Assembly (NCBI RefSeq): GCF_900172215.1
Contig: NZ_FWFP01000005.1
Location: 248,001 to 312,000 of the forward strand
Direction: 5' to 3'
From: Ruegeria meonggei
GTDB taxonomy: Bacteria; Pseudomonadota; Alphaproteobacteria; Rhodobacterales; Rhodobacteraceae
Length of the DNA stretch: 64,000 bases
Every line of letters begins with the position of its first letter. Positions within the stretch are counted from its first letter, which is position 1. Positions 47,980-49,306 of this stretch are shown piece by piece. A program made the translations under genes and the position numbers. The notes under the pieces are model-generated. The model did no database searches and was not told where the DNA came from. It was given only the letters and a program-made list of their open reading frames with translations.

Positions 47980-48624
47980 ATGCAACGCGCTTTCATTCCC
48001 GGCATTCTTGCCATGGCCGCCATTGTTGTGGCCTCGAACATTCTGGTCCAGTTCCTGATCCTTGACGGCCTGCTGACCTGGGGTGCCTTCACCTATCCTC
48101 TGGCCTTTCTGGTCACTGACATCATGAATCGCATCTATGGCGTGGCCACCGCCCGCAAGGTCGTGTTGGCCGGGTTTGTCACCGGCATCATCTGTTCGCT
48201 GATCGGCAGCCAGATCATGCTGCAGGGGGATGGGTTCACCTATGCCGCCGTGCCGCTGCGGATCGCTGTCGCCTCGGGAACTGCGTTCTTGTTGGCACAG
48301 CTGACCGACGTCACCGTGTTCAACGCCATGCGCGGCGGTCGTTGGTGGCGTGCGCCGCTTGTCTCGACCCTGGTTGGTTCCGCACTGGACACTGCACTGT
48401 TCTTCACCATCGCCTTTTCCGCCTCGGTTGCGATCTTTGGTGCCAATGCCGACGCCGCAATCAGCTGGGCGTGGGAGCCTGTGCCCTTCATGCTGTCTGG
48501 TCCGATGGCTCCGCTGTGGGTGACGCTGGCCTTTGCCGATTGGTTGGTGAAACTATCACTGGCGCTGGTGGCGCTGATCCCCTTCAAGATGATCGTTGCC
48601 CGCCTGACCGCACAGCCGGCATAA
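47980..48624 (+). CDS. yhhQ: Queuosine precursor transporter YhhQ
   Basis: 214 residues from ATG 47980. Six hydrophobic segments; the VUT/YhhQ signature YPLAFLVTDIMNRIYGVATARKVVLAGF (about 38-65) is clear, with the later VTVFNAMRGGRWWRAPLVSTLVGSALDTALFF. It imports queuine precursors preQ0/preQ1 or queuine in bacteria that salvage queuosine. I see no preQ1 riboswitch in the 91 bases before it. The RNA element at 48660-48855 follows. Confidence 0.92.
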   Translation: MQRAFIPGILAMAAIVVASNILVQFLILDGLLTWGAFTYPLAFLVTDIMNRIYGVATARKVVLAGFVTGIICSLIGSQIMLQGDGFTYAAVPLRIAVASGTAFLLAQLTDVTVFNAMRGGRWWRAPLVSTLVGSALDTALFFTIAFSASVAIFGANADAAISWAWEPVPFMLSGPMAPLWVTLAFADWLVKLSLALVALIPFKMIVARLTAQPA

Positions 48625-48698
48625 AAAACGCTTTGAGAATGGCACAACTTGTGGCACGCTTCTTTTCAACCGCAACAGATAGAAAAGGAGGTGATCCA

Positions 48699-48755
48699 GT
48701 GTCGAGAAAGAGATTGGAGAGAGGTGTCGGAACAACCGGGGGGATCGCCCGTTAG
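48699..48755 (+). CDS. 18-residue small protein or leader peptide
   Basis: GTG frame encoding MSRKRLERGVGTTGGIAR. The AGGAGGTGATCC region ends 1 base before it, placing the SD core AGGAGG 7 bases from the start, an optimal spacing and an unusually strong match to the end of 16S rRNA. The product is basic (five Arg, one Lys). Such a strong site for so short a frame suggests a leader peptide, a dual-function RNA, or a decoy for ribosomes. No longer gene overlaps. Confidence 0.55.
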   Translation: MSRKRLERGVGTTGGIAR

Positions 48756-48825
48756 GGCAGCCCTTGGCGGAGCGCTCGCTCCGGCTGGTCGATTGATCTA
48801 ACCGACCCCACCTCCTGAACTTTCG

Positions 48826-48855
48826 AAGGGCCGTCCCGCCGGGGCGGCCCTTTTT
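48826..48855 (+). terminator. Rho-independent terminator of the small RNA element
   Basis: AGGGCCGTCCC (48827-48837), loop GCC, GGGGCGGCCCT (48841-48851) with one G-T wobble, followed by TTTTT. It ends 32 bases before the arfB start, so the element is a separate short transcript or a yhhQ trailer. Confidence 0.88.
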
Positions 48856-48886
48856 GTTTCTGCACGCCGCCTGTAAGGTCGCCAAC

Positions 48887-49306
48887 ATGTTGCGCATCAA
48901 CGACGATATCACCCTGCAAGACTGGGAACTGACCGAGAGCTTTGTGCGTTCGTCCGGTCCCGGCGGGCAGAACGTCAACAAAGTGTCCACCGCCGTGGAA
49001 TTGCGGTTCGAGGCGGCGCGCTCGCCCTCGCTGCCTGATCCGATCAAGGCGCGTCTGAAACGGCTGGCCGGGCGGCGCTGGACCAAAGAGGGCGCGATCA
49101 TCATCCAGTGCGAGGAAACCCGATCACAGGCCCGTAACCGTGAGATCGCTCGCGCCCGACTGGCCGAGCTGATCGCCCGCGCGCTGATCAAACCCAAACG
49201 GCGCATTGCCACCAAGCCTACCTATGGGTCGGTCAAGCGGCGGTTGGCGTCTAAAAAGGCGCGTTCAAACGTCAAGGCATTACGGGGCCAGGTGCCCGAA
49301 GATTGA
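48887..49306 (+). CDS. arfB: Peptidyl-tRNA hydrolase ArfB (ribosome rescue)
   Basis: 139 residues. The GGQ motif of release factors is in RSSGPGGQNVNKVSTAVELRF (about 20-40), and the C-terminal tail is strongly basic (KPKRRIATKPTYGSVKRRLASKKARSNVKALRGQ), which threads into the mRNA channel. It rescues ribosomes stalled without a stop codon, as a backup to tmRNA/SmpB (smpB lies at 52532). ATG 48887; a preceding frame from 48854 is ignored. It lies directly after the RNA element that carries an anti-SD motif. Also called YaeJ. Confidence 0.94.
   Translation: MLRINDDITLQDWELTESFVRSSGPGGQNVNKVSTAVELRFEAARSPSLPDPIKARLKRLAGRRWTKEGAIIIQCEETRSQARNREIARARLAELIARALIKPKRRIATKPTYGSVKRRLASKKARSNVKALRGQVPED

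Follow-up and report, generated by a model that had tools for sequence, protein, structure and literature searches.

The window analysed here (the whole stretch of 64,000 nt from Ruegeria meonggei, contig NZ_FWFP01000005.1, positions 248,001–312,000) carries a free-standing small RNA gene, which sequence comparison places as the Rhodobacteraceae branch of a multi-order alphaproteobacterial RNA family related to CC2171. The anatomy of the RNA and the selection acting on it are well supported. From these we infer a function, and hold it with evenly balanced confidence: a ribosome-engaging regulatory RNA, the fold of which would be gated by ribosome binding and transit.

Gene structure

The features of the locus, all on the forward strand of the window, are as follows.

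47980–48624 (+): upstream neighbour, Vut_1 family (PF02592)
48633–48660 (+): candidate promoter-like region, TTGAGA (48633–48638), 16 nt, CACGCT (48655–48660)
48684–48699 (+): extended SD, AAAGGAGGTGATCCAG, perfect 16-nt complement of the 16S rRNA 3' end
48699–48755 (+): 18-codon frame, VSRKRLERGVGTTGGIAR, with GTG start (48699–48701) and TAG stop (48753–48755)
48706–48710 (+): helix H1, 5' side, GAAAG in codons 3–4; covaries with 48820–48824, and other orders have an equivalent helix
48723–48730 (+): helix P3, 5' side, GGTGTCGG; partner 48802–48809, 93.9% of cells paired
48742–48749 (+): GGATCGCC within the frame, a second stretch able to pair with GGTGATCC of the SD (from a duplex search on relatives)
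48802–48809 (+): helix P3, 3' side, CCGACCCC; pairs with 48723–48730
48809–48816 (+): anti-SD, CACCTCCT, predicted SD mask
48820–48824 (+): helix H1, 3' side, CTTTC, directly 5' of the terminator; covaries with 48706–48710
48825–48857 (+): intrinsic terminator and T-run
48887–49306 (+): downstream neighbour, RF-1 domain protein of 139 aa with GGQ

A preliminary description, made from the letters of the window, had reported a strong terminator and an 18-codon GTG frame, and both are confirmed at the positions above; the terminator stem (48825–48853) has 13 pairs. Transcription is estimated to start near 48666. A position-wise comparison of 62 diverse Rhodobacteraceae-type loci shows conservation 5' of the SD, including a block near −52 that is T-rich and resembles TTGACA, and this upstream conservation suggests that the RNA has its own promoter. 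An automatic scan of the locus for a sigma-70 promoter was negative. An inverted repeat of the GACACA-N5-TGTGTC type overlaps the presumed promoter (48640–48656 in the window, and the same region of loci L099 and L129); some 6+5+6 repeat, allowing one mismatch among the 6 arm positions and lying within −75 to −25, occurs in 28 of the 62 Rhodobacteraceae-type loci, and may possibly be the site of a regulator.

Complementarity to 16S rRNA

The 12-nt SD, AGGAGGTGATCC, had been correctly placed at 48686–48697 in the preliminary description. Since the 16S rRNA 3' ends of one genome of the same genus and one of the same family read CTGGATCACCTCCTTTCT, the complement spans the 16 nt AAAGGAGGTGATCCAG, and not only 12; a 16S match was not found in the 4.54-Mb draft assembly of the window's own genome. 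That assembly contains a single exact copy of the AGGAGGTGATCC 12-mer. Among five other genomes of the genus the 12-mer occurs once in four and three times in the fifth (G043), where the copies are the RNA, the 16S antisense strand and one other place. When one mismatch is allowed, the window has two 12-mer sites against a shuffle mean of 0.26, a count reached by 3 of 100 shuffles. The best pairing with the 16S tail (as read from the relatives) among 42,654 stretches, taken from both strands of the window at every third position, is a 20-nt stretch at this site (−31.6 kcal/mol), and a 24-nt stretch at the SD gives a duplex of −31.8 kcal/mol. Positions 48685–48703 are identical in 28 relatives from the genus.

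In L067 and L266 (G331) an identical 16S complement, AAAGGAGGTGATCCAGTG, lies 5' of a 57-codon frame that resembles a small secreted protein; the extended SD thus also occurs outside the RNA family.

Conservation and distribution

Mean identity to the window in the same 28 relatives, which are the best RNA matches and so were chosen for their similarity, is 100% in the SD block, 97% in the rest of the frame and RNA and 98% in the terminator. The surrounding sequence gives 87% for the promoter stretch, 89% for the upstream spacer, 64% for the gap before the RF-1 gene and 82–86% for the flanking genes, the third codon positions of which are 60–66% identical. This pattern points to purifying selection on the RNA.

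A DNA match is present in 52 of 54 genomes of the genus. One of these (G026) has the terminator only, G028 and G036 have no match, and the RNA is thus carried by 51 genomes, all with matches of at least 90% identity. At the family level 114 of 149 genomes match, and as seven matches are terminator-only when read row by row, 107 remain. In the class, AGGAGGTGATCCAGTG occurs exactly in 23 of 385 genomes, a search that misses diverged copies; by inspection, 20 of the 24 exact places are family members, the four judged otherwise being L063, L067, L081 and L084. Across the phylum, AAGGAGGTGATCCAGTGTC with at most one mismatch is found in 30 of 299 genomes, all of them among the 86 of the class and none among the 213 outside it. 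Given that the RNA is missing from 3 of 54 genus genomes and that 56 of the 86 class genomes have no one-mismatch match, it is dispensable or diverged in many lineages. One family of the class, f174, has no match to the 5' block at one mismatch in any of its 13 genomes, while other families of the class do, possibly by lineage-wide loss or strong divergence.

At least 119 stretches belong to named genomes, including Bradyrhizobium, Methylobacterium, Bosea, Devosia and Brevundimonas; also among the matches listed are Phenylobacterium, Falsiroseomonas, Roseococcus, many Rhodobacteraceae and two gammaproteobacterial records. The latter (L132, of the SAR92 cluster, and L161, Cellvibrionales) are contigs with the AAGGAGGTGATCCAGTGTC block, and the next 60 nt or so contain CACTGG, the complement of CCAGTG, and a terminator-like GGGAGCC..GGCTCCC; this element is possibly a minimal version of the RNA, or a convergent one. 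L132, L161 and L203 (gammaproteobacterial or coding) were left out of the duplex, fold, frame, helix and promoter comparisons, and L254, a coding match, out of the frame, promoter and later helix comparisons. No match occurred in the plasmid collection.

Relationship to known RNAs

No Rfam family is found in the window at the gathering threshold. With permissive settings, RF01867 (CC2171, a Caulobacter sRNA) aligns over its full length with 35.6 bits (E = 4.4e-6) against a cut-off of 75, which makes the window RNA a distant relative of CC2171 and not a member by the Rfam criterion, a relation absent from the preliminary description. The cut-off is reached in none of 19 genus genomes, the window's own included, 18 of which match below it, and by 10 of 20 hand-chosen loci of other lineages (two of the loci being gammaproteobacterial). 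Relatives that pass the cut-off share the 5' block AAGGAGGUGAUCCAGUGUC with the window RNA. CC2171 and the window RNA are alike in this block, in an SD and GUG that lie outside the helix and in an alphaproteobacterial range, and the CC2171 plan, a helix between the first codons and the stretch just before the terminator, is present in the window RNA as GAAAG:CTTTC, with uneven covariation. The window RNA differs in the letters of H1, in having nearly always 18 codons, in its extra anti-SD mask and in its neighbours.

The CcsR RNAs of Rhodobacter, to which the RNA had been compared in the preliminary description, are tandem homologous hairpins with CCUCC loops, encoded behind a DUF1127 gene. 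The window RNA is likewise an sRNA of the Rhodobacterales with a CCUCC-containing anti-SD segment. Unlike CcsR it is a single gene with one anti-SD element, has no tandem CCUCC hairpins and lies behind a Vut_1 gene, not DUF1127, and membership of that group was rejected. Identity with 6S RNA was likewise rejected; RF00013 has no match in the window at its cut-off, and the only match in the genome is below the cut-off and on another contig. At one locus (L065, 2721–3016) a match to alpha tmRNA, cut off by the end of the locus, lies about 1.2 kb from a CC2171 relative.

In the part of the Rfam 15 paper that was available (PMC11701678), CC2171 appears among the families to which a single covarying pair was added, and in that of a Mesorhizobium huakuii study (PMC5596092) a homologue annotated as RF01867/CC2171 was predicted and detected by RNA-seq. 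The available text of an sRNA survey of Ruegeria pomeroyi (PMC4809877) gives no coordinates to match with the RNA, and no match was established from those of a Paracoccus sRNA paper (PMC5107571) and a Caulobacter Hfq paper (PMC11005374). No function for CC2171/RF01867 was found among titles and abstract openings, in a partial collection from which subscription journals are largely missing. Within that collection the literature on the family consists of the database entry and one detection.

A short frame with a selected stop

Among 86 Rhodobacteraceae-type sequences that were picked by RNA motifs and not by frame, 85 have a stop at codon 19, and the remaining one at codon 13. The stops of 70 distinct frames are TAG (35), TGA (20) and TAA (15), and TGG does not occur, against 10 instances predicted by independent columns (P = 2e-8, or 9e-7 for the 38 frames of less than 85% identity, statistics that ignore relatedness). 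The strict motif filter omitted genus members with GTGTTGG, including L211 (ATG start, 18 codons), and also L193. When the filter is relaxed, 18 codons are found in 45 of the 49 diverse sequences that enter the Rhodobacteraceae-type set. The four exceptions are L053 (12 codons), L193 (22 codons), L208 and L221, the last two being chance entries of the motif that on inspection are of another type, so that true departures from 18 codons number two within the Rhodobacteraceae type. In other orders the frame linked to the SD stops after 14–33 codons in 84 of 84 diverse sequences, compared with 25 and 27 of 84 for the other two frames. Start codons, which stand at a suitable distance from the 16S complement, are GTG at 211 and ATG at 5 of 216 sites, a count that allows one mismatch in a 16-mer query and includes a few coding matches; as GTG is part of the query, other starts are under-counted.

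The encoded amino acids behave differently. The synonymous share is 52 of 171 substitutions in 34 close pairs of Rhodobacteraceae (0.304, expected 0.305) and 16 of 50 in 18 close pairs of other orders (0.32, expected 0.297), and the balance of synonymous and non-synonymous changes among close pairs thus gives no sign of selection on the peptide, an outcome that RNA constraint may blur. The peptides of different lineages share little beyond MS, and codons 13–18 drift freely among Rhodobacteraceae-type frames. On this comparative evidence, phase and stop are shown to be under selection while the amino acids drift. That the RNA serves only to encode a small conserved peptide is therefore very improbable: a conserved phase and stop would fit, but a neutral synonymous share and such divergent peptides would not. 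A conventional leader peptide, which the preliminary description had offered as one possibility, is unlikely, because the amino acids show no constraint. In the Bradyrhizobium-type loci (L110, L115, L120, L130 and others) the frame has 14 codons and a nearly fixed end, KRCHLAGIAR; an apparently conserved peptide sets these loci apart from other members of the family, and may follow from conservation of the RNA.

Leader peptides and uORFs offer a point of reference. In rbfL of Staphylococcus aureus the translation of a short GUG frame matters, according to the portion available of a paper on extended SD motifs (PMC13009471). The window RNA differs from such uORFs and leader-peptide attenuators in that no downstream gene is common to the lineages, the peptide is unconstrained and the RNA has its own terminator. 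Dual-function sRNAs such as SgrS and RNAIII are small RNAs with a short frame and an SD-occluding fold, and in both respects the window RNA is like them, although here the amino acids are not conserved; as for the translated frame by which such RNAs are defined, phase and stop appear to be under selection.

As start and stop are retained and the peptide is not, the purpose of the frame appears to be ribosome passage and not a protein. Alternatively, the stops may do no more than prevent non-stop translation, the RNA binding ribosomes for a different reason. A rival reading is a decoy role, another of the possibilities raised in the preliminary description, in which the RNA occupies 16S 3' ends, and the frame and stop let trapped ribosomes leave cleanly. 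A complement of 16 nt exceeds the length needed for initiation. Its retention across orders, the window's best 16S pairing at this very site and a peptide-indifferent frame with a stop in 84/84 and 85/86 sequences all agree with a decoy, but masking its own SD would bring such an RNA no gain unless release were conditional, and very high abundance would be required, so we consider this quite unlikely.

Two predicted folds

The window RNA folds 4.4 s.d. better than its shuffles, and in the minimum-energy fold (−94.7 kcal/mol) the SD is masked by the anti-SD. For each of 76 Rhodobacteraceae-type sequences the SD core is predicted to be paired, and its mean unpaired probability is 0.044 in 30 diverse sequences (sampled from 55) compared with 0.305 in 240 shuffles. 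All 55 diverse relatives of the Rhodobacteraceae type are able to form six pairs between SD and anti-SD (GGAGGU, G-U pairs included). The preliminary description had seen a ribosome site and its own mask on one short RNA, a view supported by masking that beats shuffles across relatives, and had named retention of the SD/anti-SD pairing and of the frame in relatives as its test; both are retained (55/55 pairings, 85/86 stops). The eight-base match it had noted is present, but even members of the genus often lack its outermost pair, in which the first base of CACCTCCT takes part (GACCTCCT, AACCTCCT).

Masking of the SD is no more than partial in the SH type (0.36 as the mean unpaired probability in 70 sequences), and is therefore not general to the family. 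Duplex formation between the SD block and the RNA's own downstream sequence reaches P ≤ 0.05 in 46 of 82 sequences sampled from 205. A stretch like GGATCGCC is found near the stop in Bradyrhizobium-type RNAs and is not uniformly conserved in Rhodobacteraceae. In the Bradyrhizobium-type loci GCTGGGATCGCC faces the SD.

As the SD hardly varies, its pairing cannot show covariation. The better comparative evidence comes from helix H1, both sides of which change together, and which the preliminary description had missed. Its variants in the Rhodobacteraceae type are GAAAG:CTTTC, GAGA:TCTC, GAGT:ACTC and GAGAA:TTCTC, with double changes in three of the five pairs. Across 55 Rhodobacteraceae-type sequences, relatedness being left in, the mean Watson-Crick run is 4.15, compared with 3.45 (s.d. 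0.11) when partners are re-dealt; with G-U pairs the signal is weak (4.29 vs 4.12, largest re-dealing 4.33). The helix is uneven, pairing being possible in 77% of cells. A control shifted by −1 column gives 24 doubly changed cells (21 observed), though only 2 doubly changed pairs (6 observed), and has 53% of cells paired (89% observed).

In other orders, again with relatedness left in, a helix run of at least six pairs occurs in 43 of 79 diverse sequences, compared with a mean of 22.7 and a maximum of 30 after re-dealing, and 36 of these 43 runs lie directly 5' of a terminator start that resembles GGAAGG; in the remaining 36 sequences the runs do not exceed 4–5 pairs. The common helix is CATTGTC:GACAATG, replaced at the same place by CATAGT:ACTATG, CACCAAA:TTTGGTG or GTGAGT:ACTCAC, and at different distances by CAATGTC:GACATTG or CATTTGTC:GACAAATG. 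The common denominator of the family is the SD and the short frame, in large part with H1, and not the masking.

The SD/anti-SD pairing crosses H1, so the two are mutually exclusive folds or form a pseudoknot. The fold with GAAAG and CTTTC paired exposes the SD at −83.9 kcal/mol, about 11 kcal/mol above the minimum.

Genomic neighbours

The upstream Vut_1 protein is presumably the YhhQ/queuosine precursor transporter, and the downstream RF-1 domain protein we take to be ArfB. With locus types assigned by frame, 93 of 96 Rhodobacteraceae-type loci have the transporter on the upstream side, and 80 of 94 have arfB no more than 500 nt downstream. Searches of the SH type (transporter 0/67, arfB 0/63) and of the Bradyrhizobium type (0/16 for both) found neither gene. 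Among 23 unassigned loci the transporter was seen in 2 of 22 and arfB in 2 of 20, in both cases at L053 and L193, which have Rhodobacteraceae-type RNAs. At L006 an RNA of 98% identity has no arfB match in its 1.5-kb flanks. A link of the RNA to arfB or the transporter is not supported, as these neighbours were found only with the Rhodobacteraceae type.

These data bear on whether the RNA acts in cis on arfB, as a leader or attenuator through which transcription would continue upon ribosome stalling. The arfB start lies 33 nt past the terminator stem, and the spacing of at most 500 nt in most Rhodobacteraceae-type loci would suit such a role. The RNA persists without arfB (L006), its position before arfB is not constant across types (80/94, 0/63, 0/16), and the computed folds, which were not aimed at antiterminators, show no helix competing with the terminator stem. 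An arfB leader is accordingly improbable, and was rejected.

Proposed mode of action

In the ribosome-gated regulatory RNA that we propose, a 30S subunit would compete with the anti-SD mask for the SD. For the window RNA the predicted cost of exposing SD and start is 14.9 kcal/mol, and as the 16S duplex (−31.8 kcal/mol) outweighs this cost, a free 30S could win. The ribosome would then translate the 18 codons (14–33 in other orders) and leave at the stop, the peptide being a by-product. Its binding and transit would open H1, and the conserved 3' segment, UCUAACCGACCCCACCUCC, would be freed or buried. Termination at a fixed place would leave the RNA free to refold, and the RNA could thus report or respond to the availability of ribosomes. 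Any action in trans may occur through pairing of the 3' segment with the SD regions of mRNAs, or the RNA may simply hold 30S subunits. More tentatively, the RNA may be an old alphaproteobacterial sensor of ribosome occupancy that has the ribosome itself as its partner, would pair with the entire 3' tail of 16S rRNA, and in which transit of a mini-frame indifferent to its peptide flips the RNA between SD-masked and H1-closed folds, so that translation without a product would itself be the function; we regard this as possible but doubtful.

An sRNA that acts in trans, either purely or with a dual function, is an unlikely reading, though worth weighing. Its CACCTCC segment or its GGCARCCC hairpin would pair with the SDs of target mRNAs, while the 5' SD would mainly lock the seed and translation would be incidental. 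The 3' segment is strongly conserved in 55 diverse relatives, the gene has a terminator and changing neighbours, and the anti-SD could also pair with GGAG or GGTG elements. A pure base-pairing sRNA would have no need of the selected stop codons, however, and in the other-order relatives listed CACCUCC is mostly absent from this place, while the SD block and short frame are kept.

With these results the family gains a testable anatomy, namely complementarity to the full 16S tail, a frame with a selected stop but no selected peptide and two mutually exclusive folds, and a branch in the Rhodobacteraceae that the automatic family cut-off misses. If the proposed ribosome-gated function is confirmed, it would be an RNA that reads the supply of ribosomes directly, and the class concerned counts Caulobacter, Bradyrhizobium, Methylobacterium and the roseobacters among its members.
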